A stretch of 34,732 nt of DNA from Flavobacteriaceae bacterium (lineage in GTDB: Bacteria > Bacteroidota > Bacteroidia > Flavobacteriales > Flavobacteriaceae). The notes under the pieces are model-generated. The model made no database searches, was not told the origin of the DNA, and saw only the letters and a program-made list of their open reading frames with translations. The DNA lies in the NCBI GenBank assembly GCA_027065775.1, contig JAMONN010000165.1:1-34732 (forward strand), written 5' to 3'. Shown piece after piece: positions 5,161-20,756 of the stretch. The position numbers and the translations under genes are program-made. Each line of letters starts with the position of its first letter. Within the stretch, counting starts at the first letter, position 1.

Positions 5161-5775
5161 ATGGAAAAAGAAAAAAGTACCTATTTAACAATTTCAAAAC
5201 CTTCTGTTGGTGAAATTTACAAAGAGAAAAGCAGTAAATTTATTGGTTATGCGTTTCCTGTAATTTCAGGAAATGAAATTAAAGAGGCAATAAATAAAGT
5301 TAAAAAAGAGCATTCTAAAGCAAGGCATTGGTGTTACGCATGGCAATTGGGTATTGATAAAATTGCATACAGAGCAAACGATGATGGCGAACCAAATAAT
5401 AGTGCGGGAAAACCTATTTATGGACAAATATTATCTAAAGAGTTAACTAACATTCTAATTGTTGTAGTTAGATATTATGGTGGTACAAAATTAGGTGTTG
5501 GTGGTTTAATTTCGGCATATAAACTTGCAGCAAATTATTCCTTAGAGAAGGCAAAAATCATAGAAAAAATTGTTAAAATAGAATTAGACATTGTTTTTGA
5601 ATATAAAGATATAAATATTGTTATGCGATTAATTAATAAACATAATATTGAAATTATTGATAAACAAATGCATTTAAATTGTAATTATAAAATAGGGGTA
5701 GATAAATCAATTTATCAAGAGGTAATTAACCAAATTAATACCTTAAGGAGCATAAAAATTAATAAAAATGAGTAG
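5161..5775 (+). CDS. yigZ: YigZ/IMPACT (UPF0029) family protein
   Basis: A 204-residue member of the YigZ/IMPACT family. The N-terminal domain carries the family motifs ARHWCYAW (around residue 54-61), DDGEPNNSAGKPI (about 75-87) and VVVRYYGGTKLGVGGL (about 102-117). A DUF1949-type ferredoxin-like domain follows (about 140-200). Eukaryotic IMPACT regulates the Gcn2 kinase; the bacterial role is unclear. It is the last gene of the 3229-5775 run. Its last codons and the 20 or so bases after the stop are a diverged copy of the sequence just upstream of lytTR at 16024-16116. Confidence 0.93.
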   Translation: MEKEKSTYLTISKPSVGEIYKEKSSKFIGYAFPVISGNEIKEAINKVKKEHSKARHWCYAWQLGIDKIAYRANDDGEPNNSAGKPIYGQILSKELTNILIVVVRYYGGTKLGVGGLISAYKLAANYSLEKAKIIEKIVKIELDIVFEYKDINIVMRLINKHNIEIIDKQMHLNCNYKIGVDKSIYQEVINQINTLRSIKINKNE

Positions 5776-5792
5776 TTTTTAAGATTAAATTA
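5698..5792 (+). repeat. Left copy of duplicated yigZ/lytTR junction
   Basis: This covers the last yigZ codons (DKSIYQEVINQINTLR), an ATG at 5768 aligning with the lytTR start, and the block AAGATTAAATTA (5781-5792). The same block lies at codons 6-9 of lytTR (16105-16116). After it the sequence reads a stop in the lytTR frame and similarity fades, so this is a dead lytTR 5' end. It forms a direct repeat with 16024-16116. Confidence 0.7.
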
Positions 5793-5966
5793 TCATGATA
5801 TATAATAAGGAGTACTTTATTTTTTTATTAAACCTCTTTAGAATATAATATTGTTACGTAAAAAAAAACTATTTATATAACCGATATATAACCGATTCAC
5901 ATTTTAAAACTCGAAACTCAAAAAAAACTTTTGTATTTATTTTAGATAATTTAAAATAAAAGTAGG

Positions 5967-5996
5967 TTGTTTTTAAAGTATATTGTTATATCTTTG
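5967..5996 (+). promoter_or_regulatory. Bacteroidetes-type promoter of the T9SS protein gene
   Basis: TTG at 5967-5969, a 19-base spacer, then TATCTTTG at 5989-5996. This matches the Bacteroidetes primary sigma consensus TTG-N17-19-TAnnTTTG. The expected transcript start is near 6003, giving a leader of about 30 bases before ATG 6035. Confidence 0.7.
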
Positions 5997-6034
5997 TAAC
6001 TTAAACTATATATTAATTTTTAAATTTATTTATT

Positions 6035-6928
6035 ATGAAAAAAACTTTACTTTTATTAGTTGCTTTTGCAACAATTTCTTTAACAGCACAAGTTACTATT
6101 TTTGAAGATGATTTCGAATCGTACGATGACTTTATTATCGAAAACATTGGAGATTGGACTCAAATTGATGTTGATTTGTCAGCTACTTATGGTGCTAATG
6201 ATGTTGATTTTGCAAACGAAGAATATGTTGGTACAGGAATTATTTTTAACGCTTCTGCTGGTACACCAGATGTAAGTGATGGTGTTTGGGCTTCATATGG
6301 AGGAGCGAAAGGGTTATACTTTATTGCTGCAACAAGTTTGCTTAATGATGATTATTTTATTTCACCACAAATTGATTTAACAGGCGCAGCAGGTTCTTCT
6401 GTTTCTTTTTGGTCAAAATCACTTACTGATCAGTATGGATTAGAACGATTTGAAGTTTTAGTTTCTACTGCAGGCAATACAGATGTTGCTGACTTTACTT
6501 TGGTAAGTGCAGGAGAATTAATGTCTCCAATTGATTATACAGAAACAATAATTGATTTATCTGCTTACGATGGTCAACAAGTTTATATTGCATTAAGATA
6601 TAAAGCGCAAGATTCTTTTGTTTGGCAAGTTGATGATTTTAAAGTTGTAGCAGATAGTGTTGCTGCAGTAGATGATAACATTTTAGCTTCTTCAGTAAAT
6701 ATTTATCCAACTACTGCTGATGCTCAAATTACAATTAACAACAGAAGTGCTATTTCTTTAAATACTGCTTCAATTTATGATGTTAATGGTCGTTTAATTG
6801 CACAGTATGACTTAAACGGTTTAGTTGGTGAAAAATCAATTAACGTTTCTAACATTAGTTCTGGTTTATACTTTGTAGAATTAGCTTCTGACAATGGTAA
6901 AGCAGTTAAAAAAATGATTAAGAAATAA
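6035..6928 (+). CDS. Secreted T9SS protein with choice-of-anchor J-like domain
   Basis: A 297-residue exported protein. Residues 1-19 are a signal peptide (MKKTLLLLVAFATISLTAQ). Residues 21-206 form one beta-sandwich of the cleaved-adhesin/choice-of-anchor J type: FEDDFESYDDF at its start, DYFISPQIDL (106-115), SVSFWSKS (122-129), and VDDFKVV at the end. Residues 219-297 form a type A T9SS sorting domain (VNIYPTTADAQITI, IYDVNGRLI, ISSGLYFVEL, final KKMIKK). The protein is therefore expected to cross the outer membrane by T9SS and be anchored or released at the cell surface. It has its own promoter and a strong terminator. It is the first intact gene inside the segment flanked by the yigZ/lytTR repeats. 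Confidence 0.88.
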   Translation: MKKTLLLLVAFATISLTAQVTIFEDDFESYDDFIIENIGDWTQIDVDLSATYGANDVDFANEEYVGTGIIFNASAGTPDVSDGVWASYGGAKGLYFIAATSLLNDDYFISPQIDLTGAAGSSVSFWSKSLTDQYGLERFEVLVSTAGNTDVADFTLVSAGELMSPIDYTETIIDLSAYDGQQVYIALRYKAQDSFVWQVDDFKVVADSVAAVDDNILASSVNIYPTTADAQITINNRSAISLNTASIYDVNGRLIAQYDLNGLVGEKSINVSNISSGLYFVELASDNGKAVKKMIKK

Positions 6929-6950
6929 TTTAATATTCTTATAAATTTAA

Positions 6951-6983
6951 AATCCTTGAAGTTTTCTTCAAGGATTTTTTTTT
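6951..6983 (+). terminator. Rho-independent terminator
   Basis: A perfect 11-bp stem (6951-6961 with 6966-6976) with a TTTT loop is followed directly by seven T (6977-6983). It is placed 23 bases after the T9SS protein gene. Confidence 0.88.
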
Positions 6984-7115
6984 GTAATGTAAATCAAAAA
7001 AAACAAATTTTTAGTCATATTTAAAATATGACTAGTTTAATATTACGTTCTTATTTTCAGAACAATACTATTTTATTTAAAAGTTTATAATATTTGAACC
7101 TTTACTAAACAAAGA

Positions 7116-7421
7116 TTATAAAATTTCTTTTAACTCTGTAAAATCACTAATTACCATATCTGCATTTTTTAAACTTTGCATTTCAGAAAATTCACTTCTA
7201 AAACCAATACAGTAGATATTTGCTCTGTTTGCAGCTAAAATACCATTATCGGAATCTTCAATTACAATGCATTTATTTTTAGGAATGTTTGCTAATTTGG
7301 CAGCATTTTCAAAAATTTCAGGATGTGGTTTAGACTCTTTTAAATCTGCGCCACTTAATTTACCAATAAAGTATTTGTCTAAATTAAATCTATTAAAATG
7401 TTTATCGGTGAATATATGCAT
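7116..7421 (-). pseudogene. 5'-truncated HAD (beta-phosphoglucomutase-like) hydrolase
   Basis: The open frame of 101 residues matches only the C-terminal half of a HAD-IA sugar-phosphatase or beta-phosphoglucomutase-like enzyme. It has the motif III lysine in ESKPHPEIF and motif IV VIEDSDNGILAA, and then the usual GLxAANRANIYCIGF-type end. Motif I (DxDG), the cap and motif II, about 100 residues, are missing. In the same frame a TAG stop lies four codons upstream of the ATG, and the next 90 bp hold the promoter of the divergent hydrolase. Without the nucleophile it cannot be a working HAD enzyme. It is most simply read as a remnant left by a deletion or insertion. Confidence 0.8.
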
Positions 7422-7469
7422 GTTTTTACTTAACTAATGTTTTAATATCGATTTAATTAAATATTTGAC

Positions 7470-7499
7470 TTTGTTAGACTCAAAATTAGTTTATTTTTG
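7470..7499 (+). promoter_or_regulatory. Bacteroidetes-type promoter of the alpha/beta hydrolase
   Basis: TTTG at 7470-7473, an 18-base spacer and TATTTTTG at 7492-7499. The start codon follows at 7520, so the leader would be about 15 bases. Confidence 0.7.
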
Positions 7500-7519
7500 T
7501 TGAATCCATTTTAATTCTT

Positions 7520-8455
7520 ATGAAAAAAACAGTTAAATATTTTTTATTTTTCCTTTTAAGTTTACTTCTAATTTTTATAGGTATTGGAATATTAAATTCT
7601 TCCAAAATAAAAAAAGGAGCTTTAAATTTCACTAATGATTGGCAAGGAAAGATTATCAATATAAACGGAGAAAACATTAGATACATTCAAGAAGGAAAAG
7701 GTAAAGATGTTTTATTAATCCACGGAACTCCAGGTTCTATTGAAGATTGGAATCCGTTAATAAACAAATTAAAAAACAACTACAGAGTTACCGTTTTTGA
7801 TCGATTAGGAAACGGGTTTAGTACTGCAAACAATTATAAATACACACTTTCTGAAAACACAAATTTTGTTACTACTTTTATTAATAAATTAAATTTAAGC
7901 GATGTTGTTATAGTGGGACATTCGTATGGTGGCAGTATCGCAACAAAGTTAGCAACGCAAAAGAATGATAAAATAAAATCTTTTGTAGTTATTGCCTCAC
8001 CATTATATCAATTTAATAATAGTTTTGATCATAAATTATTGGCATCGCCACTTATTGGTAAAGGAATAGCAATATTAATTGCTAAATTTGCAGCAAAACC
8101 GATGATCGAAACAGGTTTGAAAAAAGCCTTTGGAGAAGAGATTTCTTCGGGTTTTTTAAAAACAAGAATACAACTTTGGTCGCAATCAAAAGTTCTATAT
8201 ACGACTTCTAATGAACGTAAGAATTATGAAGACGATTTATTAGAAAGCAGTAAGAATTATAAAAACATCACAAAAAAAATCACTTTTTTTGTAGGTTTAA
8301 AAGACAATAAAAATATTATTGAAGATTTTAATCAAACAAAAAAAGATATTAAACAAGCACAAAATATTTCCTTTAATGACGTTTCTCATTATATTCAATT
8401 TGAAAAAACAAATGAAATTTTGACAATCGTAGAGGAACACTTAAATCAAAATTAA
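7520..8455 (+). CDS. Membrane-anchored alpha/beta hydrolase
   Basis: A 311-residue alpha/beta-fold hydrolase. Residues 1-26 form a hydrophobic N-terminal anchor or signal (KYFLFFLLSLLLIFIGIGIL) with no clear cleavage site. Then come the oxyanion loop HGTPG (68-72), FDRLGNGFS (93-101), the nucleophile elbow GHSYGG (Ser135) and a C-terminal catalytic histidine in DVSHYIQFE. The acid is probably the aspartate in GLKDNKN. It is likely an esterase or peptidase-like hydrolase facing the periplasm; the substrate is unknown. Its stop and the next start share one base (TAATG at 8453-8457), so it is translationally coupled to the methyltransferase. Confidence 0.85.
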   Translation: MKKTVKYFLFFLLSLLLIFIGIGILNSSKIKKGALNFTNDWQGKIININGENIRYIQEGKGKDVLLIHGTPGSIEDWNPLINKLKNNYRVTVFDRLGNGFSTANNYKYTLSENTNFVTTFINKLNLSDVVIVGHSYGGSIATKLATQKNDKIKSFVVIASPLYQFNNSFDHKLLASPLIGKGIAILIAKFAAKPMIETGLKKAFGEEISSGFLKTRIQLWSQSKVLYTTSNERKNYEDDLLESSKNYKNITKKITFFVGLKDNKNIIEDFNQTKKDIKQAQNISFNDVSHYIQFEKTNEILTIVEEHLNQN

Positions 8456-9615
8456 TGAATAAATTTGAACCCTTTTTCGAAAAAATAGAACAAAGTTTAC
8501 AACAAGATGATTTTGTAAAACTCACATTAAGCAAACCTCTAAGTAAACAAAATGAGTTGCAAAATGTTTATTTAAGACTCATTTACTTAAAAGAAGAGCA
8601 ATTTTTTCAGTTTACTTATAGATATAAAACTAATGATCAGGTTAAAAACCATTCATTTGAAGAAGCCAAAGAAATTTTAGAAGATTTACTTTTAAACGCT
8701 TTTAGATTCGCTACTTTATTTGCCTTAAGTGAAGATACACAGTGTTTTATTTCTAAAAAGAAAGTGGTTACTATTAAAAAACAATATCCAAGTTTTAAAA
8801 ATAAATTGCCAGAACATCATGATAATATAAAAACTAAAAAAGTGGAGAAAAGTGATTATTTATTCCATTTAGGTATAAGTGATAAAGAAGGAAATATTAT
8901 CCATAAAATGGCCGATAAATATCGTCAGATTAATAAATATTTAGAAATCATAGATGATTTAATTAAAACTTCTGATTTACCAAATAAAATTAATATTGTA
9001 GATATGGGTTCAGGTAAAGGTTATTTAACTTTTGCATTATATGATTATCTAACAAATAAAAAAGGGCACGACGTAACAGTTACAGGTATTGAATTAAGAG
9101 AAAAATTAGTGAATTATTGTAACGAGATTGCTCAAAAATGTAAGTTTAATAACCTGCATTTTGTTTGCAAACCAATTGAAGAATATAAAGAAAAAAACAT
9201 CGATATCTTAATCGCCTTGCATGCTTGTGATACAGCAACAGATGATGCATTATATAAAGGTATTATTTCTAATGCCACTTTAATTGTAACAGCGCCATGT
9301 TGTCATAAACAAATTAGACAGCAGTTAAAAGGTAGTCAACAAGATAATCCGATTTTAAAATATGGTATTTTTAAAGAGCGTCAATACGAAATGTTAACAG
9401 ACACTATGCGAGCTTTACTTTTAGAGAAAGAAAATTATCAAACTAAAATATTTGAATTTATTTCAAACGAACATACTAGAAAAAACGTAATGTTAGTAGG
9501 TAAGAAGTCTTCCAGAAAAGTGGATACAACAGTGATTGATAAAAAAATAAATGATTTAAAGCAAGAATTTGGAGTTACAGAACATTATTTAGAAGAATTA
9601 ATGAATAGTAAATGA
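8455..9615 (+). CDS. SAM-dependent methyltransferase (Methyltransf_32-like)
   Basis: A 386-residue class I methyltransferase. An N-terminal helical and strand region (1-150) precedes the Rossmann core. SAM motif I is DMGSGKGYLTFALYDYL (183-199), the acidic residue ending strand 2 is in GIELREKL, and motif IV is ALHACDTATDDAL (254-266). APCCHKQIRQQL follows (280-291). This ALHACD plus PCCH pattern is typical of the family that also contains the METTL25 and GSTCD C-terminal domains. A tRNA or rRNA substrate would be in keeping, but I cannot assign one. It is coupled to the hydrolase upstream. Confidence 0.82.
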   Translation: MNKFEPFFEKIEQSLQQDDFVKLTLSKPLSKQNELQNVYLRLIYLKEEQFFQFTYRYKTNDQVKNHSFEEAKEILEDLLLNAFRFATLFALSEDTQCFISKKKVVTIKKQYPSFKNKLPEHHDNIKTKKVEKSDYLFHLGISDKEGNIIHKMADKYRQINKYLEIIDDLIKTSDLPNKINIVDMGSGKGYLTFALYDYLTNKKGHDVTVTGIELREKLVNYCNEIAQKCKFNNLHFVCKPIEEYKEKNIDILIALHACDTATDDALYKGIISNATLIVTAPCCHKQIRQQLKGSQQDNPILKYGIFKERQYEMLTDTMRALLLEKENYQTKIFEFISNEHTRKNVMLVGKKSSRKVDTTVIDKKINDLKQEFGVTEHYLEELMNSK

Positions 9616-9963
9616 AAATTTTAAAATAAGACTCTATGCTATTTATATTGGGTAATTTATTTTCTCGCAAAGGCGCTAAGTCGCAAAGTTAAGTCTGTCT
9701 AATGAGTAAGTCGCTATTATATTTGCTTTAATTAACCACTCAATTCGACATAGTACCAACTTATATGAACTTAAATGTCTTATATGGTTAAATAAAACTC
9801 ATTATATAAAATTATGAATACAACAAATCAAATAAACCCAAAAGCAATTAAGTTTTTAAAACGATTAGAAAAAACAGTGAGAAACAGCAAACATTATTTA
9901 TAGCCAACTTATATGAACTTAAATGCCTTATATGGTTAAATAAAACTCATATTATATAAAATT
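9616..9963 (+). other. 348-bp gap with repeat DNA and a duplicated gene start
   Basis: It contains a TTTGCG-family dispersed repeat (CGCAAAG ... TCGCAAAG, 9666-9688) and the first copy of the 120-bp direct duplication (9756-9876), described separately. Apart from the 29-codon truncated frame in that copy, I see no gene. Confidence 0.7.
9756..9876 (+). repeat. Direct duplication, copy 1: leader plus first codons of the DUF2461 gene
   Basis: Nearly identical to 9904-10027: one T/C change, a 2-bp gap in CTCAT(AT)TATA and one A fewer in the final A-run. It carries a false start ATG at 9814 and the same first 20 codons (MNTTNQINPKAIKFLKRLEK). The frame then changes and stops at TAG 9901-9903, right before copy 2. 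The result is a 29-codon open frame upstream of the real gene. Confidence 0.9.
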
Positions 9964-10027
9964 ATGAATACAACAAATCAAATAAACCCAAAAGCAATTA
10001 AGTTTTTAAAACGATTAGAAAAAAACA
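9904..10027 (+). repeat. Direct duplication, copy 2 (native 5' end of the DUF2461 gene)
   Basis: Second copy of the 9756-9876 repeat, offset 148-150 bp. It runs into the intact DUF2461 frame (ATG at 9964), so this is the functional copy. Confidence 0.9.
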
Positions 10028-10650
10028 ATGATCGCGAATGGTTTAAGGAACATAAAGAGGAATATAAAGATTTAGAAGATGAGATAAAACAATTTTATGC
10101 AGCACTAAATTCTAAATTACAAAAAGACGATAAAATTGATAAACTTAAAATGTTTAGAATCTATCGTGATGTTCGATTTTCTAAAGACAAAACACCATAT
10201 AATTTACATTTTTCAGGTTCGTTTATGCGTGCTACCGCGAAATTAAGAGGTACATATTATTTAAGAATTAAATCGGATGCAACATTAATTGGTTGTGGAT
10301 TTTGGGGACCAAGTAAAGAAGATTTATACAGAATTAGAAAAGAATTTGAATTAGATACTTCTGAAATTAGAGATATAATAAATAATAAAAAATTTAAAAC
10401 TATTTGGGGAGATTTTGTTGGTGAAGAACTTAAAACAGCACCAAGAGGTTTTGATAAAAATCATGAAGCAATAGATTTAATTAAAAAGAAACAATTTTTA
10501 TTTATAAAAGAATTTACAAATAAAGAAATGTTATCCGAAGATTTTCAAGAACAAGTATATAATTCTTTCAAAGCAATTAGACCTTTTTTTGATTATATGA
10601 GTGAAATATTAACAACCGATTTAAATGGTGTTTCTATTTTTGACAAATAA
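9964..10650 (+). CDS. DUF2461 (TIGR02453) family protein
   Basis: A 228-residue cytoplasmic protein of the DUF2461 family. It is recognised by the N-terminal FLKRLEKNNDREWFKEHKEEY (14-34), the middle KMFRIYRDVRFSKDKTPYNLHFSG (about 62-85) and GCGFWGPSKEDLYRIRKE (about 110-127). Full length for the family; function unknown. Its leader and first 20 codons are duplicated immediately upstream. It converges on the DUF937 gene with a bidirectional terminator between. Confidence 0.9.
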   Translation: MNTTNQINPKAIKFLKRLEKNNDREWFKEHKEEYKDLEDEIKQFYAALNSKLQKDDKIDKLKMFRIYRDVRFSKDKTPYNLHFSGSFMRATAKLRGTYYLRIKSDATLIGCGFWGPSKEDLYRIRKEFELDTSEIRDIINNKKFKTIWGDFVGEELKTAPRGFDKNHEAIDLIKKKQFLFIKEFTNKEMLSEDFQEQVYNSFKAIRPFFDYMSEILTTDLNGVSIFDK

Positions 10651-10664
10651 ATTAAATGCAAAAA

Positions 10665-10696
10665 AAAACGATTACTTAATTATAAGTAATCGTTTT
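10665..10696. terminator. Bidirectional Rho-independent terminator
   Basis: A perfect 13-bp stem (10665-10677 with 10684-10696) around a 6-base loop. It has an A-run before and T's at its end, so it can stop both convergent genes (DUF2461 and DUF937). Confidence 0.88.
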
Positions 10697-10715
10697 ATAT
10701 AACTTTAAAAGGAAT

Positions 10716-11351
10716 CTATTTACCAAATAAACCACCTAGTAATCCGCCAAGACCACCTTTTTTTCCGCCGCCCATAAGCATTCCTGCAACATCATCAATA
10801 ATACTTCCGTCGCCATCAGCGTCTAATAAACGATTTACTAAACTTTGTTGTTCTTTTTGACCGCCACCAAGCATACCGCCAAGTAAACCGCCTAAACCAT
10901 TTTGATCAGAAACTCCTTGTGATTTTGCTTGCTTACCTAAAGCACCCATTAAAAATGGTCCTGCAACTTTTAATATATTCATTGCACTGCCTAAATCAAT
11001 ACCACTTGATTTACTAACTGCTTGTGCAACATTTTCTTCTCTACCACCAAATACATGACCTAAAATCCCTGCACCATCTTTCATTACATCATCGTCAATT
11101 TTATCGCCACCTAAGATACCGCTTAATTTATCCATTATTCCACCATCATGCTTTCCGCCCATTAATGCACCTAATAAACCAGATGCACCGTCGCTTGTTG
11201 AAGCATTATTTTTCATTGCTCCTAATATTAAAGGCATTGCTGTACTTAATGCGCTTTGTGTTTTGTCTTGTCCTAAACCTAATTGTTTACTAGCACCGCT
11301 AATTAACATTTCTCCCATTGGTCCCTTTAATAAATCTAAAATTCCTGCCAT
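10716..11351 (-). CDS. DUF937 family Gly/Leu-rich protein with a Ca-loop-like motif
   Basis: A 211-residue protein rich in Gly, Leu and Met, of the DUF937 type. It begins MAGILDLLKGPMGEMLISGASKQLG and contains several LGGLLGGxLGG-like blocks (about 57-66, 152-164, 200-210). Residues 177-187 (DADGDGSIIDD) look like an EF-hand or dockerin calcium loop, with acidic residues at positions 1, 3, 5 and 10-11. There is no signal peptide or clear membrane helix. Function unknown; the repetitive hydrophobic-glycine blocks suggest self-association, which is inference. Confidence 0.82.
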   Translation of the reverse strand: MAGILDLLKGPMGEMLISGASKQLGLGQDKTQSALSTAMPLILGAMKNNASTSDGASGLLGALMGGKHDGGIMDKLSGILGGDKIDDDVMKDGAGILGHVFGGREENVAQAVSKSSGIDLGSAMNILKVAGPFLMGALGKQAKSQGVSDQNGLGGLLGGMLGGGQKEQQSLVNRLLDADGDGSIIDDVAGMLMGGGKKGGLGGLLGGLFGK

Positions 11352-11489
11352 TTTAATTTTTCTTTTTAATATGATTAATAATTATTTCTTGCAATTTACA
11401 AATAAATTACATTTCTTCAAAAGAAAATATCGTGCCAATATTAATTTTATTTTTATATATTGCTGTCTTAATAAATTATAATTTAATAT

Positions 11490-12818
11490 ATGAAGAATTT
11501 AGCATTACATTGGAAAATTTTAATAGGAATGATTTTCGGAATCATTTTCGGAATAGTAATGAATAAAACTTCTTTTGGAGATTGGTTTGTAAACGATTGG
11601 ATTAAACCTTTAGGTAAGATTTTTGTAAACATGCTAAAATTAATAGCAATACCTTTAATTATGGCATCGCTAATAAAAGGAATTTCGGATTTAAAAGATA
11701 TTTCAAAATTCAAAAAAATGGGTCTGCGAACTATTTCCATTTATATTATAACTACGATTATCGCAATAACTATTGGTCTTGGATTAGTAAATATTATTAA
11801 ACCAGGAGTAGGAATTGACCAAGAAACAGTTACAAAATTAAAAGAAAAATACGCAAACAATGCTAGTGTAAATAGTAAGATGGCAACTTTTAAAAACAAT
11901 AAAGAAAAAGGACCATTACAATTTATTGTGGATATGGTTCCTTCAAATGCTTTTAAAGCAATGAGTGAAAATAAAAATATGCTGCAAGTTATATTTTTTA
12001 CCATTTTATTAGGAATAAGTCTACTGCTAATACCTGAAGAAAAAGCAAAACCGTTAAAAGATTTTTTTGACTCCTTAAATGAAGTCGTCTTAAAAATAGT
12101 AGATTTAATAATGCTTTTTGCACCTTATGCGGTTTTTGCATTATTGGCAACGGTAATTGTAAATTCTGAAGATGCCACTATTTTATTAGCCTTATTAAAA
12201 TATGCTTTTGTGGTTATTTTAGGTTTGTTATTAATGATTGTGTTTTATTTAATAGTAGTTGCAACGTATACTAAAAAATCTCCATTATGGTTTTTAAAAC
12301 AAATATCACCTGCACAATTATTAGCATTTTCTACAAGTAGTAGTGCTGCAACTTTACCAGTAACTATGGAAAGAGTGGAAGAACATATTGGCGTAGATAA
12401 GGAAGTGAGTAGTTTTGTACTACCAGTTGGCGCAACTATTAATATGGATGGTACAAGTTTGTATCAAGCAGTAGCTGCTGTTTTTTGTATGCAAGTACTT
12501 TGGCCAGAAGGTTTAATGTTTAGCAACCAATTAATTATTGTTGTAACTGCATTATTAGCATCAATAGGTTCTGCCGCAGTACCAGGAGCAGGAATGGTAA
12601 TGTTAGTAATTGTATTAGATGCTATTGGTTTTCCGCCAGATATGTTGCCAATTGCTTTGGCACTTATTTTTGCAGTTGATAGACCTTTAGATATGTGTAG
12701 AACAACAATTAATGTAACAGGTGATGCTGCGGTTGCTATGGTAATTGCAAAATCATTTGGTAAATTAGGAGAACCCCATGTAAAAGACTGGAATGATGAT
12801 TATAAAGGTAAAGTTTAA
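11490..12818 (+). CDS. Acidic amino acid:cation symporter (DAACS/GltP family)
   Basis: A 442-residue transporter with the glutamate transporter fold: eight helices plus two re-entrant hairpins. HP1 carries SSSAATLPV (283-291), TM7 carries NMDGTSLYQ (318-326), HP2 carries ASIGSAAVPGAG (357-368), and TM8 carries DRPLDMCRTTINVTGD (397-412). Arg404 sits where GltPh has Arg397, the residue that pairs with the side-chain carboxylate of the substrate. Glutamate or aspartate uptake, probably with Na+, is therefore more likely than neutral amino acids. The gene is divergent from the DUF937 gene and followed by an octamer array. Confidence 0.92.
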   Translation: MKNLALHWKILIGMIFGIIFGIVMNKTSFGDWFVNDWIKPLGKIFVNMLKLIAIPLIMASLIKGISDLKDISKFKKMGLRTISIYIITTIIAITIGLGLVNIIKPGVGIDQETVTKLKEKYANNASVNSKMATFKNNKEKGPLQFIVDMVPSNAFKAMSENKNMLQVIFFTILLGISLLLIPEEKAKPLKDFFDSLNEVVLKIVDLIMLFAPYAVFALLATVIVNSEDATILLALLKYAFVVILGLLLMIVFYLIVVATYTKKSPLWFLKQISPAQLLAFSTSSSAATLPVTMERVEEHIGVDKEVSSFVLPVGATINMDGTSLYQAVAAVFCMQVLWPEGLMFSNQLIIVVTALLASIGSAAVPGAGMVMLVIVLDAIGFPPDMLPIALALIFAVDRPLDMCRTTINVTGDAAVAMVIAKSFGKLGEPHVKDWNDDYKGKV

Positions 12819-12826
12819 TTTTTTGC

Positions 12827-12890
12827 AATTAACCAATTAACCAATTAACCAATTAACCAATTAACCAATTAACCAATTAACCAATTAACC
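12827..12890 (+). repeat. Tandem array (AATTAACC)8
   Basis: Eight perfect 8-bp units fill nearly all of the space between the symporter stop (12818) and the ATP-grasp start (12898). They end 7 bases before that ATG and so occupy its ribosome-binding and leader region. Changes in unit number would change leader length in 8-bp steps without touching a reading frame. Confidence 0.97.
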
Positions 12891-12897
12891 AAAACCT

Positions 12898-13932
12898 ATG
12901 AATATTTGCTTTTTAATGTATCCTTGGGAAACTATTAAAGTTCCTGAAAATGATTCGAGTGTATGTTTAATACACGAATGTGTAAAACGTGGTCATGGTG
13001 TTGCTATTTGTACACCTGCAAATCTAACTATTAGGAATAGTGAAACAAGCGCTTTTTGTACCATTATTAATAAGATGGACAAAGTGCCGAGTAACTTAAA
13101 AACATTTCATAAAACGGCTAAAACTCGAGAAGAAATGTTACCGCTAGCAGGTTTCGACGTTATCTTTATGCGTGCAGAACCGCCATTAGATCCGTTAATG
13201 TTAAATTTTTTAGATTCTGTAAAAGAAGATGTTTTCATTATGAATTCGGTAAACGGAATGCGTGTAGCAAATAACAAATTATATACCGCAGTTTTTGATG
13301 ATCCAAATAATGAAATTATACCAGTAACACATGTTTCAAAAAATAAAGACTATTTAATTAAAACCATTGAAGAATCAACTTCTGAAAAAATGATTTTAAA
13401 ACCGTTAAATGGTTTTGGTGGTTCTGGAGTTATTTTAATTGAAAAATCAGCAATGGGAAACATTAATTCTTTATTAGATTTTTATCTTCAAAATGCCATT
13501 GGCGGAAGCGATTATGTAATTTTACAAGAATATATTGAAGGTGCCGAAAAAGGAGATGTTCGTATATTAATGCTTAATGGTCAGCCAATCGCTTCAATGA
13601 AAAGAATACCTGGCGAAAAAGATCATAGATCAAATGTTAGCGCTGGCGGATCTATAGAAAAACATACTTTAACAACAAAAGAGAAACAATTGTGTGCTAA
13701 AATTGGTCCAAAATTAATTGCAGATGGTCTTCATTTTGTTGGTATAGATGTAATTAGTGAAATGTTAGTAGAAGTAAATGTAATGAGTCCAGGCGGAATT
13801 ACCTATATGAATAAAGCATATAGAGCAAAAATACAAGAACCAATAATAGACTTTTTAGAGGCAAAAGTAATGGAATTAAATGCAGGTTTTAACCGTAGAG
13901 CAAAATTGAGAAAAACGGTTGATGATGCGTAA
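12898..13932 (+). CDS. GshB-like glutathione synthetase (ATP-grasp ligase)
   Basis: A 344-residue ATP-grasp ligase that aligns with bacterial glutathione synthetase GshB over its full length. It has the N-domain with DSSVCLIHECVKRGH (19-33), LAGFDVIFMRAEPPLDP (83-99), NSVNGMRVANNKLYT (116-130), ILKPLNGFGGSGV (166-178, ATP-binding loop), GDVRILMLNGQPI (219-231), RSNVSAGGSIEKH (244-256) and VGIDVISEMLVEVNVMSPGG (281-300, metal-binding Glu/Asn). The GshB reaction joins gamma-glutamylcysteine to glycine. No gamma-glutamylcysteine ligase is in the window, so another amino acid or peptide pair is possible. It is followed by an N-formylglutamate amidohydrolase-like gene and a DUF1704 gene on the same strand. 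Confidence 0.87.
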   Translation: MNICFLMYPWETIKVPENDSSVCLIHECVKRGHGVAICTPANLTIRNSETSAFCTIINKMDKVPSNLKTFHKTAKTREEMLPLAGFDVIFMRAEPPLDPLMLNFLDSVKEDVFIMNSVNGMRVANNKLYTAVFDDPNNEIIPVTHVSKNKDYLIKTIEESTSEKMILKPLNGFGGSGVILIEKSAMGNINSLLDFYLQNAIGGSDYVILQEYIEGAEKGDVRILMLNGQPIASMKRIPGEKDHRSNVSAGGSIEKHTLTTKEKQLCAKIGPKLIADGLHFVGIDVISEMLVEVNVMSPGGITYMNKAYRAKIQEPIIDFLEAKVMELNAGFNRRAKLRKTVDDA

Positions 13933-13988
13933 TCAGTCATCAGTTGGCAGTATTAAGTTATTAGTAAACGAATTATAACCTAAATAAA

Positions 13989-14028
13989 CTTTTGCGACCT
14001 TTGCGAAAAACTTAGCGACCTTTGCGGT
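13989..14028 (+). repeat. TTTGCG-family dispersed intergenic repeat
   Basis: Three copies of (T)TTGCGACC/TTTGCG-type units (CTTTTGCGACC, TTTGCG, AGCGACC, TTTGCGG) end 7 bases before ATG 14036. The same motif in opposite orientation (CGCAAAG...CGCAAAG) is at 9666-9688. A CAGTCATCAGTTGGCAGT stretch at 13936-13953 is a further short imperfect repeat in this gap. Confidence 0.7.
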
Positions 14029-14035
14029 TAAACCT

Positions 14036-14857
14036 ATGCAAAAACTATCCATAAATCAAATAATTAAAAAGATAAATAATCAAGAAACATTTCATGCTGT
14101 TTCTAATGATTACTCGTTTACTTTAAAAATTGATAGTTATGTACATTATGTTTGTGGTGCAGTACATAATGGTCATCAGTTTAGAAAATCACTTTGGAAA
14201 AATTGTTTGCATACCGAATATGATCGTTGGTTTGAAGAAGATCCAGAAACTAAAACAATGATTCAATCACATCCTATAGTTATTGCTGGTTGTGATTCAA
14301 GATTTGAATACGATTTAAATCGAGCGCCTGAATCTGCAATTTATATAGATGCTTGGGGAAAACAATTGTGGAAAAACCCGTTACAAGAAAGTGAAAAAAT
14401 ACAAAGTTTACAAAAACATGAGGATTTTTATAAAGTAGTTAATGCATTAATCTCTAAATTAGAAGAGATACACAATAAGGTAATTGTTTACGATATGCAT
14501 TCTTATAATTGGAAACGTTGGAGTAGAGAAGTGCCAACTTTTAATTTAGGCGCAGGTAAAATAGATATGAATAGATTTGGTGATTTTGTAGAATCTTGGC
14601 GAAAATCATTATCCGAGATTAAACTTCCAAATAAAATTAAAAGCACTTCTTTAATAAATGATGTTTTTAAAGGAAATGGTTATTTTTTAAATTACATAAC
14701 TTCAAATTTTAAGAATACATTAGTTTTAGCTACAGAAGTAAGTAAAATTTATTGTGATGAATTAGAACAGATTATGTATCCAGAAATTGTTAATGCAATA
14801 GAAAAAGAATTAATAGTAAGATTAAAAGCGCATGCAAAAAGGTTTTTAAATAATTAA
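14036..14857 (+). CDS. N-formylglutamate amidohydrolase-like protein
   Basis: A 273-residue protein of the N-formylglutamate amidohydrolase (FGase) family. The zinc-binding and active-site blocks are AVHNGH (42-47), HTEYDRW (59-65), CDSRFEYDLNRAPESAIY (86-103) and VYDMHSYN (151-158). The classical enzyme frees glutamate and formate in histidine breakdown. No hut gene is near, and this gene sits between a GshB-like ligase and a DUF1704 peptidase. An amidase or deformylase step in that unassigned pathway is therefore the more likely job (inference). No signal peptide. Only 20 bp separate it from the DUF1704 gene. Confidence 0.82.
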   Translation: MQKLSINQIIKKINNQETFHAVSNDYSFTLKIDSYVHYVCGAVHNGHQFRKSLWKNCLHTEYDRWFEEDPETKTMIQSHPIVIAGCDSRFEYDLNRAPESAIYIDAWGKQLWKNPLQESEKIQSLQKHEDFYKVVNALISKLEEIHNKVIVYDMHSYNWKRWSREVPTFNLGAGKIDMNRFGDFVESWRKSLSEIKLPNKIKSTSLINDVFKGNGYFLNYITSNFKNTLVLATEVSKIYCDELEQIMYPEIVNAIEKELIVRLKAHAKRFLNN

Positions 14858-14877
14858 TTCGTTTCTTTGTATTTAAT

Positions 14878-16023
14878 ATGACTACAACTGATAATATAGT
14901 ATTTGAAATTGATAATAAGTTAGATCAATTAGTAAAAAAAATTGAATTACTAAACTATATTAATCCAATAAATATAGAAGTAGAAAAAGAACGTTTTTTT
15001 CAATCTAAATTCACAAAAAACCCAAATTTTAAATATCCAAAAGTTGATTTTGATTCTTTTAAATTACAAAGAGAATTATTTGCTTTAAAAATTGAAGATA
15101 TTGAGGATGATATAATAAGAAAATTATACGAAGATATTATTTACGAATATTCAGGTTTAATAGAATGTATTACTACAATTGGTCAAGGAAAAAAGTTTTA
15201 TTATAATTCACTTAAATCTTTTGGTACACCAACAGAAAAAGATGTAGAAAATGCTAAATTTATTTTACATTTTGAAGATGAAATAGATATAGAGAAAAAC
15301 TTACCGCGTTTTGATGTACACGAAACTGAAAAATTATTTAGAGAATATTCTAAGCAATACGATTTTTCGTATGAGATAAAACATTCCGATAAAATGTCTG
15401 CTATTGCAATGGTTTTAAGTAATGACAAAACATTGGTGTTGAATACAAATCACACTTTTTCAGAAACAGATGTAAATATTTTAACAAATCATGAAATAGG
15501 TGTTCATATGGTTACAACTATGAATAGTTTGCGAAATGATTTAAAAATATTTTCACATGGTTTTCCTAACAATGTAGAAACACAAGAAGGTTTAGCGGTC
15601 TATAGCGAATATATGTCTAATAGTATTACGCTATCTCGATTAAAAAGACTGGCATTTAGAGTTATAGCTGTTAATTCTTTAGAAAAAGGGTATGAATTTA
15701 AGCAAACTTTTAAATTACTGTATAATAATTATAGTTTATGTAAAGAAAATGCATTTAATATAACTTTAAGAGTACATCGTGGTGGTGGTTTTACAAAAGA
15801 TTACTTGTATTTAACTGGTTTGTCAAAAGTGTACAGTTATTATAAGAATGAAAAAAATATTAATTTGCTTTTAACAGGAAAAACATCTATTGAATATGCA
15901 AAAAGCATTAAATATTTAATTAGTAATAACTACGCTAGAGAACCGAAATATATTACAGATTCTTACCAGAAAAATAAAAATTCAAAAAAAACTATTGCGT
16001 TTATTTTAGATAATTTAGCATAA
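14878..16023 (+). CDS. DUF1704 metallopeptidase-like protein (QEGLA motif, TIGR02421-type)
   Basis: A 381-residue protein with the defining motifs of the flavohemoglobin expression-modulating QEGLA family. These are HEIGVH (205-210, an HExxxH zinc site), QEGLA (236-240), whose glutamate is expected to complete the site, and the conserved C-terminal RVHRGGGFTKDYLYLTGL (298-315). The same domain in animals (MATCAP/KIAA0895L) is a tubulin tyrosine carboxypeptidase, so removal of a C-terminal residue is a fair hypothesis. The bacterial substrate is not known. It is cytoplasmic, with no signal. It is the last gene of the ATP-grasp/deformylase/DUF1704 set. Its stop codon coincides with the start of the yigZ remnant, so its final residues may come from the breakpoint. 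Confidence 0.88.
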   Translation: MTTTDNIVFEIDNKLDQLVKKIELLNYINPINIEVEKERFFQSKFTKNPNFKYPKVDFDSFKLQRELFALKIEDIEDDIIRKLYEDIIYEYSGLIECITTIGQGKKFYYNSLKSFGTPTEKDVENAKFILHFEDEIDIEKNLPRFDVHETEKLFREYSKQYDFSYEIKHSDKMSAIAMVLSNDKTLVLNTNHTFSETDVNILTNHEIGVHMVTTMNSLRNDLKIFSHGFPNNVETQEGLAVYSEYMSNSITLSRLKRLAFRVIAVNSLEKGYEFKQTFKLLYNNYSLCKENAFNITLRVHRGGGFTKDYLYLTGLSKVYSYYKNEKNINLLLTGKTSIEYAKSIKYLISNNYAREPKYITDSYQKNKNSKKTIAFILDNLA

Positions 16024-16086
16024 ATTGCGATTAACAAATCAATATTTCAAGAAGTTGAACAAATTAATAATTTAAGGTATCAATAA
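16024..16086 (+). pseudogene. yigZ 3'-end remnant (right copy of duplicated junction)
   Basis: Directly after the DUF1704 stop the same frame reads IAINKSIFQEVEQINNLRYQ and stop (TAA 16084-16086). This matches the C-terminus of YigZ in this window (IGVDKSIYQEVINQINTLRSI). No start or upstream part of yigZ remains. Three bases later comes ATG of lytTR, and the bases around that start also match those after intact yigZ (AAGATTAAATTA at 16105-16116 and 5781-5792). This shows an ancestral yigZ-lytTR arrangement that is now split. Confidence 0.85.
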
Positions 16087-16089
16087 AAA

Positions 16090-16980
16090 ATGTTAGACTT
16101 TTTTAAGATTAAATTACCATATCAAAATGCAATAAAGCACAAGTTTTTAATGGCACTATTTTATGGTTTTTTACCATATACTTTTTTATTGATTTTTAAA
16201 CCATTTGGGTTAAATGATTTTTTACAACATAATAAAATATTTGTTTTAGGGTATAGTTTTATTGCATTTGCTTACAATTTCTGTATCTATTTATTAATGG
16301 ATAAAATATCTTTTTTTGTTAAGAATTGGAATGTTATTAAGGTAATCTTATTATACTTTTTTATTGTTTTTTCTATTTCTGTTCTATATTATATATATCA
16401 TTGTTCAGGTGAAAACCTACCACTTTATAAAAGTATAAATTATGATGAAATTGTGTTTATGGTGATTGCCATCACTTTACTTCCCACTATATTAGTAGTT
16501 CTTACTTTAAAGTTAAACGATAATAAGAGGTATTTCTTGGAGTTAACTTCTAAAAAAAACAATAAAATTGAAGTTAATAAGGTTAAGAAACGAGTTTTTA
16601 AAATAAAAACAACATCATTAAAAGAGCAAGACTTAATAATTAATATTAATGATTTTTTATATGTAAATTCAGATAATAATTATTGTCATTTTCATTACCT
16701 AAATAAGGATAATATTGTTGTAAATAAAATGCTTAGAATTACCTTAAAACAAGTCGAAAGTCAGTTAAAAGATTTTAAATATTTTTTAAGATGTCATAAT
16801 TCTTACATTATTAATACCTCAAAAATTATTAAAATTGATGGAAATTCAACAAATAGAAAAATTAAATTGAAACATGTTAATTTTTCAATACCGACATCTA
16901 GAAGTCTAAAAATAAGCGCTTTAAGTGAATTATTGCAGGACAACCATTTACCACAAAATCCACTAAATACAACATTTTAG
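16090..16980 (+). CDS. Membrane-anchored LytTR-family transcription regulator
   Basis: A 296-residue one-component regulator. Residues 1-160 carry about four membrane helices (around 19-38, 50-69, 82-101, 122-142), with no receiver or kinase domain. Residues about 190-285 form a LytTR DNA-binding domain: FLYVNSDNNYCHFHYL, LRITLKQVESQL, FLRCHNSYIINTSKI and FSIPTSRS are its usual blocks. It should sense a membrane or external signal and bind DNA from the membrane. The closest downstream genes, two CZB zinc-binding proteins, are natural regulatory candidates. The ancestral neighbour upstream was yigZ. Confidence 0.87.
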   Translation: MLDFFKIKLPYQNAIKHKFLMALFYGFLPYTFLLIFKPFGLNDFLQHNKIFVLGYSFIAFAYNFCIYLLMDKISFFVKNWNVIKVILLYFFIVFSISVLYYIYHCSGENLPLYKSINYDEIVFMVIAITLLPTILVVLTLKLNDNKRYFLELTSKKNNKIEVNKVKKRVFKIKTTSLKEQDLIININDFLYVNSDNNYCHFHYLNKDNIVVNKMLRITLKQVESQLKDFKYFLRCHNSYIINTSKIIKIDGNSTNRKIKLKHVNFSIPTSRSLKISALSELLQDNHLPQNPLNTTF

Positions 16981-17019: not shown

Positions 17020-17048
17020 CTTTGCTAAAAAGAAAATTAACAATAAAA

Positions 17049-17660
17049 ATGAGTGATTTAGAAAACGAAATCGAACGATTGATTTCAGAAAAAAAACGCA
17101 TAAAAGAAAAACTCTCAGAAAATTTTAATGATAAGGATGATTCGCATGACGATAATCTAAAAATATCTATCGAAAAATCAACAGAATCTAATCCGATAGA
17201 AGTTGATATTATAAAATTTAAAAAAGAGACTCTAAAACAACTTGCAGATGCAAAAATAGGACATAAAAAATGGATGTCTTATGTGCAAATACTAATAGCA
17301 CTTGGTGATATTCAATCTGCAAATGCAGAAATACCTGTAAATTATACAATGTGTGATTTTGGAGTATGGTATTACGGTCATGGACAATTATTAAATGAAT
17401 ATGACAGATTTGATGAAATTGAAGAAATTCATCAAGAAGTTCATGATACATACCTTAAAATTTATAATTTATATAAAAATCCGCTAAAAGGATCTTTGCT
17501 TAAAAGCTTAAAAAAAGCAGAATTTAATAGACAAGAAAACGCAGAAAAATTAGCTATAGTATTAAAACAACATTCTAAAACTTTATTCGAAATATTGAAT
17601 GATATGTCTGACAGATTGAAAAAAATGTCTAATGAAAAGTTAACCGAGATGATTAGTTAA
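17049..17660 (+). CDS. Stand-alone CZB (chemoreceptor zinc-binding) domain protein
   Basis: A 203-residue soluble protein. Residues 1-60 form a charged helical region with coiled-coil character (MSDLENEIERLISEKKRIKEK). Residues about 65-145 form a CZB domain with all zinc ligands: His72 (GHKKWM), Cys102 in the CxFGxW motif (MCDFGVWYYG), and His128/His132 (HQEVH). A C-terminal helix follows. CZB domains normally end chemoreceptors or sit with diguanylate cyclases and sense zinc or hypochlorous acid; here there is no other signalling domain. ATG 17049 is preferred over an in-frame TTG at 17022, which lies in the promoter/leader region. It pairs with the next gene, which has the same domain. Confidence 0.85.
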   Translation: MSDLENEIERLISEKKRIKEKLSENFNDKDDSHDDNLKISIEKSTESNPIEVDIIKFKKETLKQLADAKIGHKKWMSYVQILIALGDIQSANAEIPVNYTMCDFGVWYYGHGQLLNEYDRFDEIEEIHQEVHDTYLKIYNLYKNPLKGSLLKSLKKAEFNRQENAEKLAIVLKQHSKTLFEILNDMSDRLKKMSNEKLTEMIS

Positions 17661-17729: not shown

Positions 17730-18722
17730 ATGGACAAAATAAAGGAAAATAAAGAAGAGTCACCACTATTAGAGATGGACTCTACTCGAAAAATAAAGAA
17801 CCTCAACAATGCACTAGATATTAGTAATATGATATCTGTTGAAAATATGATTGCTTTAAAAGAGAAATCTGCTAGAATAGCTAAAGGTTTGATTAATGAT
17901 AAATCATCTGCGGATATGCCTTCTATTAAAGAAGATAAAATTCACAAAATAGATGTTAAAACTGTTGATAGTAAAATAAATGTTGAATTAACTCCAACTA
18001 AAGGATTAACTTCTACTGAAGAATTAACTCCTGTTAAAGAATTAACTTCTACTGAAGAACCAGTTCATGTTAAAGAATTAATTTCAGTTAAAGGATTAAC
18101 TTCTACTGAAGAACCAGTTCATGTTAAAGAATTAATTCCAACTAAAGAATTAACTCCTGCTAAAGGATTAACTTCTGCTAAAGAATTAACTTCGACTGAA
18201 AAAGTAATTATTAACCATACGATTGATAAAACAAATACAAACAAAGAAAATATTACTAAAGTCAGTAATATTGTTTCGAAAGAATCACTAATAGAAGAAT
18301 TAGAGACTGCTCAAACTGACCATTTAAATTACATGAAAAATATTTATGTATTTTTACAATTAGAAGGAAATGTAACTAATTCACAACTTACTAATCCTGA
18401 AAACTATACTATGTGTACTTTTGGGGAATGGTACTATGGTAAAGGGCAGTCATTTACTGAGTTTGATGAATTTAAACAAGTAGAATCTTTACATGTTGTT
18501 ATTCATAATTATTATTTAAAGATATACAAATTATATAGTATTACTTTAAAAAGTTCCTTTTTTAAAACGATAGCAAAGTTAGAAAAAGAGCGTTTGCTAA
18601 AAGTTGAAAAATTAGTTGTTATTTTAGAATCTAATTCTAATCAATTAATTGATTTATTAGATAAAATAGCAATAAAAATTAAAAGTATGAATCCAAAGGA
18701 ACTCGAATCTATAATGACTTAA
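17730..18722 (+). CDS. Second CZB domain protein with a hexapeptide-repeat region
   Basis: A 330-residue protein. Residues 1-85 are polar and helical. Residues 87-158 are twelve exact-length hexapeptide units of the type L-T-S-T-E-E / L-T-P-x-K-E / P-V-H-V-K-E. Residues about 190-275 are a CZB domain with His198 (DHLNYM), Cys229 (MCTFGEWYYG) and His255/His259 (HVVIH). A C-terminal helix follows. It is clearly a paralog of the gene 70 bp upstream and probably arose by duplication followed by gain of the repeat linker. No membrane helix and no signal peptide. Its stop codon overlaps the convergent guaD stop. Confidence 0.85.
   Translation: MDKIKENKEESPLLEMDSTRKIKNLNNALDISNMISVENMIALKEKSARIAKGLINDKSSADMPSIKEDKIHKIDVKTVDSKINVELTPTKGLTSTEELTPVKELTSTEEPVHVKELISVKGLTSTEEPVHVKELIPTKELTPAKGLTSAKELTSTEKVIINHTIDKTNTNKENITKVSNIVSKESLIEELETAQTDHLNYMKNIYVFLQLEGNVTNSQLTNPENYTMCTFGEWYYGKGQSFTEFDEFKQVESLHVVIHNYYLKIYKLYSITLKSSFFKTIAKLEKERLLKVEKLVVILESNSNQLIDLLDKIAIKIKSMNPKELESIMT
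17988..18203 (+). repeat. Intragenic 18-bp repeats (12 units) coding hexapeptides
   Basis: Twelve 18-bp units, 216 bp, kept in frame. Units 4-6 and 7-9 form a higher-order 54-bp repeat (LTSTEE, PVHVKE, LI...K). The units differ at many bases, so the array is old or under selection, but neighbouring units such as LTSTEE are identical at DNA level in places. Confidence 0.93.
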
Positions 18723-19242: not shown

Positions 19243-19361
19243 TTCAACATTCAACATTCAACATTCAACATTCAACATTCAACATTCAACATTCAACATT
19301 CAACATTCAACATTCAACATTCAACATTCAACATTCAACATTCAACATTCAACATTCAACA
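19243..19361. repeat. Tandem array (TTCAACA)17
   Basis: Seventeen perfect 7-bp units (119 bp) start directly at the base next to the fumC stop codon (19362) and end 47 bp before the guaD start (on the minus strand the unit reads TGTTGAA). One inverted unit, TGTTGAA, lies at 19218-19224. A perfect array of this length is a prime candidate for strain-to-strain copy-number change. Confidence 0.97.
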
Positions 19362-20756
19362 TTACAAAGTTCCAGTCATATCTTGTGGTACAACCCATTC
19401 ATCATATTGTTCGGCAGTTACGTAACCTAAATTAATAGCTTCTTCTTTTAAAGTAGTGCCGTTTTTATGTGCTGTATTAGCAATTTCGGCAGCTTTGTAG
19501 TAACCTATTTTTGTATTTAAAGCAGTAACTAACATTAATGAATTGTTTAATAATTCTTCTATTTTTTTAGTATTTACTTCAATTCCTTCTGCACAATTAT
19601 CATTAAAAGACAAACATGCATCGCCTAATAATCTAGCGGATTGTAAAAAATTTGCCGCCATTAAAGGTTTAAAAACATTTAATTCAAAATGACCTTGCAT
19701 TCCACCAATGGTTATCGCAACATCATTACCCATAACTTGTGCGCAAACCATAGTCAAAGCTTCTGCTTGCGTAGGATTTACTTTACCTGGCATAATAGAA
19801 GATCCAGGTTCGTTTGCTGGTAATATTAATTCGCCAATACCACTTCGCGGACCAGATGCTAAAATTCTAATATCATGTGCAATTTTATTTAAAGAAACGG
19901 CTAACATTTTTAGTGCTGCATGACTTTCTACTATAGCATCATGTGCCGCTAAAGCTTCAAACTTATTTTTTGCAGTAATAAATGGTAAACCTGTAAACTC
20001 TGCAATGTATTTTGCAACTAAAACATCGTAACCTTTTGGAGTATTTAGACCAGTACCAACTGCTGTTCCTCCTAAAGCTAATTCGGATAAATGACTTAAA
20101 GAATTATTAAGAGATTTTAGACCGTGATCTAATTGCGAAACATAACCAGAAAATTCTTGGCCAACTGTTAATGGCGTAGCATCCATTAAATGGGTTCTAC
20201 CAATTTTAACTACATTAATAAAGTCATTAGACTTATCATCTAAAGTATTTCTTAATTTTTTTATATTTGGTATCGTATTCTCTAGCAGTATTTTATATGC
20301 CGCAATATGCATTCCTGTAGGGAAAGTATCGTTAGAAGATTGCGATTTATTTACATCATCGTTAGGTTGAATTATTTTTTCACCTTCGCCAATTATTCTA
20401 CCTGCAATTTCTTGCGCTCTGTTAGCAATTACTTCATTAACATTCATGTTACTTTGTGTGCCAGAACCAGTTTGCCAAATAACTAACGGAAACTGATTAT
20501 CATGTTTTCCAGCAATAATTTCATCACAAACTTGCCCAATTAAATCTCTTTTACTAGCATCTAAAATACCAAGTTCGCAATTTGTGTAAGCTGCCGCTTT
20601 TTTTAAGTAAGCAAAACCATAAACTAATTCTAATGGCATGGATGCACTTGCGCCAATTTTGAAATTATTTCTAGACCTTTCCGTTTGTGCACCCCAATAT
20701 TTATCACTTGGTACTTCCACATTTCCCATCGTATCCTTCTCAATTCTGAAACTCAT
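19362..20756 (-). CDS. fumC: Class II fumarate hydratase
   Basis: A 464-residue, full-length class II fumarase (fumarate + water to L-malate, TCA cycle, cytoplasm). Family motifs are [19 protein letters not shown] (96-114), [12 protein letters not shown] (136-147), [12 protein letters not shown] (186-197) and the SS-loop signature [13 protein letters not shown] (318-330), which carries the catalytic serine. A TAACTTTG sequence on the minus strand in the 95-bp divergent region (20777-20784) could be its -7 box. The start [11 protein letters not shown] is typical. It is followed by guaD across the TTCAACA array. Confidence 0.96.

Follow-up and report, generated by a model that had tools for sequence, protein, structure and literature searches.

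Insertion with long target duplication was reportedly recognized by Nobusato et al. in 2000, for restriction-modification (R-M) genes of Helicobacter pylori, and Furuta is said to have described DNA duplication associated with inversion (DDAI) in 2011. Tandem duplication followed by random loss yields a permuted gene order with gene remnants, and integrative elements often duplicate gene 3′ ends. Here we compare with these systems a block of about 10 kb that lies between yigZ and lytTR in a 34,732-nt stretch of DNA from a Flavobacteriaceae bacterium (JAMONN010000165.1; hereafter the window), which is a whole contig (C165) of an 87% complete metagenome-assembled genome (MAG) of 2.77 Mb. Insertion with long target duplication is cited in passages of PMC1643837, PMC3031569, PMC4978471, and PMC3874152 (PMC2869330 has it as an entry in its reference list); PMC3874152 gives, in the passage concerned, a duplication length “in the order of 100 bp” and a movement unlinked to a known mobile element; for DDAI, a passage of PMC8963470 states that the breakpoint sequence is duplicated during the rearrangement.

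The block is very probably a relocated chromosomal cluster that was inserted between yigZ and lytTR. The event fits insertion with long target duplication, since a direct target duplication of ~100 bp surrounds the inserted genes and no transposase, integrase, or recombinase was found among the Pfam domains of the 10 main open reading frames (ORFs) of the segment. It departs from that system in two respects, namely that the cargo is a 10-kb block of conserved non-R-M genes of the bacterium’s own genome, and that the donor end is duplicated as well; R-M cargo is frequent in that system without defining it. The locus resembles DDAI in the duplication of breakpoint sequence, but shows no inversion, the copies being direct and the orientation of the block being that found in relatives. 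Judged by titles, the open-licence papers that were listed include no report of a long target duplication in Flavobacteriaceae.

Two duplications in the window

A preliminary description of this DNA, made from the letters alone, had noted an intact yigZ followed by a dead lytTR start and an intact lytTR preceded by a dead yigZ end, and had read the two junctions as diverged direct repeats. This duplication is real. Both genes are intact ORFs (yigZ at 5161–5775 and lytTR from 16090), the dead lytTR start has its ATG at 5768 as described and extends to 5796, and the dead yigZ end lies where it had been placed, inside 16024–16089. BLAST aligns 5704–5796 with 16036–16120 over 93 bp (73% identical, E = 1e-6). 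When the junctions (5690–5830 vs. 16015–16130) were aligned locally and compared with 2000 dinucleotide shuffles, a check of the kind that the preliminary description had proposed, the score of 65 stood well above all shuffles (mean 22, maximum 40, 0/2000 as good). The copies are direct repeats of the order of 100 bp, composed of target sequence and flanking the insert, and the repeat is met twice when the window and the 81 stretches sampled from the genome are taken together. Given that the yigZ stop at 5775 and the lytTR ATG at 5768 made the two genes overlap by 8 bp, a plain insertion would break one of them, while the duplication keeps both whole.

A second duplication, overlooked by the preliminary description, concerns the last gene of the segment (14878–16023; Pfam MATCAP, a family that we take to be the former DUF1704). 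In what follows Y, L, and D stand for yigZ, lytTR, and this MATCAP/DUF1704 gene, X for a gene encoding a secreted protein, and primes (L′, D′, Y′) for dead scraps. D′ matches amino acids 348–380 of D at 5858–5953 and is in frame through to the stop, and the corresponding DNA repeat (5879–5960/15941–16024) spans 84 bp at 77% identity (E = 5e-11, 0/2000 shuffles). Both exchange partners are duplicated, in the order yigZ, lytTR′, D′, X ... D, yigZ′, lytTR, with D and X both whole and X retaining its upstream region. The new joints link the lytTR start to the D tail and the D end to the yigZ tail, Y′ starting no more than ~12 bp from the D stop codon. The proposal that a yigZ–lytTR pair was split by an insert of ~10.2 kb stands, but the start of that insert cannot be kept at 5793: since the D tail occupies 5858–5959, inserted material begins at ~5797–5858. 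The features are as follows, with the basis of each in brackets.

5161–5775, plus strand: yigZ (UPF0029; Y), intact left-hand target gene (ORF, Pfam PF01205)
5704–5796, plus strand: left copy of the target duplication, live yigZ tail and dead lytTR start (alignment, BLAST)
5858–5959, plus strand: D′, dead copy of the last 33 codons and stop of D (protein match, translation, DNA repeat)
5960–6034, plus strand: D-to-X intergenic stretch, order as in genus relatives, with TATCTTTG at 5989–5996, presumably a Bacteroidota-type promoter motif (synteny)
6035–6928, plus strand: X, secreted protein with Por_Secre_tail and Cleaved_Adhesin (Pfam, synteny)
7122–7466, minus strand: HAD hydrolase remnant, amino acids 99–214 of 215, with one in-frame TAG (homology, synteny)
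7520–10650, plus strand: alpha/beta hydrolase, Methyltransf_32 protein, and DUF2461 gene (Pfam, synteny)
10651–10715, no strand: third new joint, DUF2461/DUF937, with no visible duplication (synteny)
10716–16023, no single strand: DUF937 (minus), dicarboxylate symporter, glutathione synthetase-like gene (GSS), N-formylglutamate amidohydrolase (FGase), and D, a block in family order (Pfam, synteny)
16024–16089, plus strand: Y′, dead yigZ tail, which with the lytTR start forms the right copy of the target duplication (16036–16120) (alignment, BLAST)
16090–16980, plus strand: lytTR (L), intact right-hand target gene (ORF, Pfam PF04397)
17022–17660, plus strand: CZB-domain gene, adjoining yigZ in two genus relatives (Pfam, synteny)

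We considered whether these repeats could come from chance similarity of AT-rich sequence or from an assembly error, which we regard as hardly credible. AT-rich DNA does give spurious matches here (a yigZ-like match on contig C255, with E = 1.8e-5, was judged to be chance intergenic similarity of this sort and was rejected), and the MAG from which the window comes as a single contig is incomplete. However, no shuffle equaled either repeat, the D′ protein match is in frame, and repeats joined by misassembly tend to be identical, which these copies, 73–77% alike, are not; for the repeats themselves this reading is refuted.

The D′ duplication most likely arose in this lineage, because D′ is closest to the bacterium’s own D tail (77%, vs. 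58–71% to either copy for the tails of 14 relatives among the 80 fetched) and is found in this genus genome only, that is, in one of the six genus genomes compared at E ≤ 0.001, and in none of the five relatives (G001–G005). The assembled genome contains a single full copy of D, so that the block was moved and not added. When 14 gaps of the window were queried with 1684 ORFs of relatives for traces of genes since lost, the D tail alone was found.

Probable origin of the block and entry into the target site

The block carries no sign of a mobile element. Pfam named no integrase, transposase, relaxase, or recombinase domain in its 10 main ORFs (overlapping antisense ORFs were not scanned), as the preliminary description had claimed for integrases, and no R-M gene in the segment; no tRNA gene was found. 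The composition check proposed at that stage gave no GC shift (0.278 inside the segment vs. 0.280 in the flanks). An integrative element with an attachment site in the yigZ 3′ end is largely refuted and in our view very improbable: such elements would leave a copied gene 3′ end beyond the insert, but here the repeats enclose no integrase and no mobile-type cargo among the 10 main ORFs, the cargo consists of conserved chromosomal genes in family order, and the duplicated D tail, at the donor end, would stay unexplained.

To trace the block we used the genus genomes and 80 GTDB contigs around D from the family (1,519,373 bases, many contigs being short; four of these loci belong to G001, G003, G004, and G005, so that the genus and family control sets overlap). 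Upstream of D, all 80 family loci have FGase, 74 have the glutathione synthetase-like gene, 68 the symporter, and 25 DUF937 on the minus strand; downstream of D an opposite-strand HAD gene occurs in 18/80 and DUF2461 further on in 4/80. In the genus an X-like gene follows D in four of the five relatives, being clear in G002 (53%) and G003 (48%), present as two partial matches (27% and 50%) in G004, and weak in G001; the contig of G005 ends ~300 bp past D. The genes after X in G004 are those found after HAD elsewhere in the family, an order that fits a D-X-HAD cluster pieced together from relatives. The window instead reads X, HAD remnant, ..., DUF2461, DUF937, symporter, GSS, FGase, D, in which the HAD-type ORF at 7116–7421, missed earlier, is a piece of the broken gene. 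The segment looks like a cyclic permutation of the chromosomal cluster, opened at D/X, and because of this order it behaves as if cut from a circle or a tandem array, of which the DUF2461/DUF937 joint would be the closure. Relatives have a further gene between GSS and FGase, to which another part of this genome shows a 48% match. They also have an FtsX-type gene after HAD, whose matches in this genome were at most 47% identical and were set aside as paralogues.

Within the block, 9756–9874 and 9904–10024 form a direct duplication (121 bp, 98%) around 29 bp, including a dead second DUF2461 start; it was not counted as a second scar of the window, its first part belonging to a dispersed AT-rich intergenic repeat family.

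At the target site, the CZB gene comes immediately after yigZ in G001 and G004, two of the three relatives with downstream sequence, and lytTR is absent between yigZ and its neighbor in the genus relatives. For the empty site expected under insertion with long target duplication, this adjacent yigZ–CZB pair is an equivocal candidate, as it lacks lytTR. Matches to lytTR in the genus are weak or confined to the domain, with a best full-length identity of 30%. In 299 family genomes, 12 match at E ≤ 1e-20, this one included, with a best other identity of 32%, and among GTDB contigs 57 stretches fit a sequence pattern and none encodes a relative. That yigZ and lytTR were neighbors before insertion is deduced from their own dead scraps, L′ and Y′.

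As to how the block entered, the most likely mechanism is an illegitimate joining of long-staggered, filled-in breaks, or template switching, an explanation that we hold with evenly balanced confidence. The cluster (DUF937, symporter, glutathione synthetase-like gene, FGase, D, X, HAD, ..., DUF2461) would have been excised or tandemly duplicated, its far ends meeting, then opened at D/X and inserted between the overlapping yigZ and lytTR. In each partner a break with ends staggered by ~100 nt would have been filled in, and the partners would have been illegitimately joined crosswise, duplicating ~93–120 bp of the target (yigZ tail/lytTR start) and ~84–100 bp of the donor (D tail). Such crosswise joining needs the cluster as a circle or a tandem array, to which the joint at 10651–10715 would correspond. 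An identical scar would result from a replication template switch that came back in at a point upstream of where it had left. The redundant halves would afterwards decay, and most of the HAD gene would be lost together with the genes that follow it in relatives. Since the duplications keep Y, L, D, and X intact, the product would survive selection. The final order is equally reached if the stretch ending in yigZ was the one to move.

Several observations weigh against a relocation of this kind. At the donor, X after D at more than 60 bits is found in 2/80 family loci, both from genus members, and is therefore a feature of the genus only; the D-X-HAD order occurs in no single relative, being pieced together; the methyltransferase loci of four genus relatives lack an adjoining hydrolase or DUF2461; and no circle, array, or donor site was seen in the material examined. 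At the target, the intact yigZ–lytTR pair that the preliminary description had suggested seeking was found in no relative, so that the empty site rests on yigZ–CZB and the dead lytTR start, and G003 has a different gene after yigZ. As for D′, its left edge cannot be fixed within ~60 bp, and it is about as distant from relatives as the live D tail. Differences between live and dead copies fall 14/12/27 over the three codon positions, vs. 91/46/219 between live copies (P = 0.18; the L089 and L064 alignments are very short), and with no significant difference a decay after duplication is unproven against the import of a diverged copy.

That import would have come from a diverged relative carrying its own junction, facilitated by homology in a Campbell-type or one-sided fashion. 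The mild enrichment of copy differences at third codon positions (27/53) suits it, and the decay test does not decide between decay and import. We nonetheless find it quite unlikely, given that D′ is nearer to the bacterium’s own D tail than the tails of the 14 relatives are, that D has no second full copy, and that the joints link unrelated genes; likewise, in a comparable scar described below, the copied obgE tail is 94–96% identical to the bacterium’s own gene, while obgE of relatives is at 80–89%. Homologous recombination, which the preliminary description had favored in the form of a Campbell-type integration, is disfavored here, as the D tail is duplicated too and unrelated junctions are joined. 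Of its suggestion that the insert came from a circular molecule, the circle-like permutation is retained, with a tandem array as another possibility, and the crossover at a carried junction is not.

A tandem duplication of the cluster alone would explain D′-X...D without any circle, and a second one around yigZ–lytTR, followed by loss, could have placed the block between the halves of the yigZ/lytTR junction. The permuted order with gene remnants is a likeness to tandem duplication–random loss, and the broken HAD gene is a remnant showing that losses occurred. Unlike in that process, however, one round cannot yield the order: a single duplication failed, by hand, for every order of the four blocks that was tried, and two are needed. 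The earlier suggestion of tandem duplication and loss is accordingly possible from two duplications and not from one. It also requires that target and cluster were once neighbors, as they are in none of the loci examined, and in each of the other clear scars just one gene is inserted, which needs no such loss. We judge this route unlikely, and return to the insertion of a relocated cluster. That such insertion is non-homologous is suggested as well by the few similar scars at other loci of this genome, with duplications of ~50–165 bp.

Similar scars elsewhere in the genome and the family

We surveyed 81 stretches of the same MAG, window excluded (633,177 of 2,766,511 bases, ~23%), with 23 stretches of G004 (356,102 bases) and 10 stretches of other genus genomes (137,250 bases) as controls; the scar criteria were set after examples had been seen, and stretch lengths and loci are unmatched between the MAG and the controls. 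A candidate was called two-copy when it had two copies in the whole set. Three clear further scars were found in these 633 kb (L219, L221, and L200:5322). They consist of an obgE tail duplicated over 165 bp (96%) around an AAA_14 gene, a gpmI/hydrolase junction duplicated over 149 bp (81%) on either side of a DUF1016 (YhcG) nuclease gene, and a tex tail duplicated over 88 bp (95%) around an outer-membrane-type gene (Pfam match of 26.7 bits, with a cut-off of 27). The gpmI scar, the best of these, has the anatomy of the window, with a live tail and dead start, the insert, and a dead tail and live start. Its empty site, as expected for insertion with long target duplication, is present in G001 and G003, where gpmI adjoins the hydrolase gene; the two are ~550 bp apart in G004, and the contig of G005 is too short. 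The live gpmI tail is 72–85% identical to relatives and the dead one 64–71%, the live being closer in 4/4 comparisons. No second copy of the obgE, gpmI, or tex tails was listed in the five other genus genomes (four for gpmI), G-domain and S1 paralogues being set aside.

Two weaker scars comprise 74 bp, mostly intergenic, around an HI0933-like gene (L232), in which a TTTGCG motif forms a spaced pair met 11 times in window and sample, yet BLAST finds two copies only, and 48 bp around a gene without a Pfam match, its own end lying inside the repeat (L203). The MAG survey gave seven candidates, of which six are two-copy: the three clear ones, the two weaker, and one gldN-like (L200:9379). The last was set apart from the scars as an apparent dead start of a paralogue, the short ORF at L200:9329–9541, like the start of the adjoining gene that we take to be GldN-like, being probably a decayed tandem paralogue. 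Repeats at L191, L200:8297, L204:4818, L207, and L224 were dropped as dispersed by copy count, L201 and L204:1055 as paralogues, and L230 as an internal repeat. The obgE scar also holds a fragment of a second gene, a glmS scrap (L219:7363–7441; 79 bp, 82%) that adjoins the dead obgE tail, and another 19 bp of the obgE tail recur exactly at L219:7759–7777.

The G004 survey gave one candidate and no two-copy one, and the other genus genomes none (0 two-copy in 493 kb for the genus relatives together), while the family D loci gave four candidates, three of them two-copy, in 1519 kb. One-sided binomial P values are 0.008 for 6/9 and 0.023 for 5/8, and ~0.15 by hand for the three clear scars only (3 vs. 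3). These results suggest that scars recur in this genome; we claim no enrichment over the controls, which are unmatched and partly overlapping.

In Hyunsoonleella pacifica (L113:20027–21102), 83-bp copies that touch a gene end enclose a ParE-type toxin gene together with its small upstream neighbor, a cargo resembling a toxin–antitoxin pair; judging by this case, the pattern may extend beyond this MAG. In Kordia jejudonensis (L138:10975–11244/13366–13635), 270 bp covering the D tail and the start of the next gene recur 2.1 kb downstream at 95% identity; this duplication, at a contig end, is possibly another scar or an assembly edge.

Further window features and bearing on gene movement

Elsewhere in the window, 1837–3192 encodes a GNAT acetyltransferase fused to a methyltransferase that we take to be PrmC-like (Pfam), the two halves matching G004 as separate stretches. 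A second CZB-domain protein (17730–18722) has a region of 18-bp (6-residue) repeats in its N-terminal half (~17985–18236), and short intergenic tandem arrays are formed by the 7-base TTCAACA at ~19243–19363 and the 8-base CAATTAAC at 12826–12890.

Gene movement without transposase or integrase, within and between bacterial genomes, is poorly explained, and the locus described here retains both sides of such an event, in the target and the donor duplications. A recurrent transposase-free process in Flavobacteriaceae, in which donor and target are opened with staggers of ~50–165 nt and exchanged, is a tentative and rather doubtful proposal at present. If it is true, arbitrary genes, from single toxin–antitoxin or nuclease genes up to 10-kb chromosomal blocks, would move in this way, with the duplicated ends keeping the four flanking genes alive. 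The scar can be computed, as a live tail and dead start on one side and a dead tail and live start on the other, and a genome-wide survey of Flavobacteriaceae could give the number of events, their ages from the divergence of the copies, the lengths of the staggers, and the cargo, such that the idea of long target duplication would become testable outside Helicobacter.

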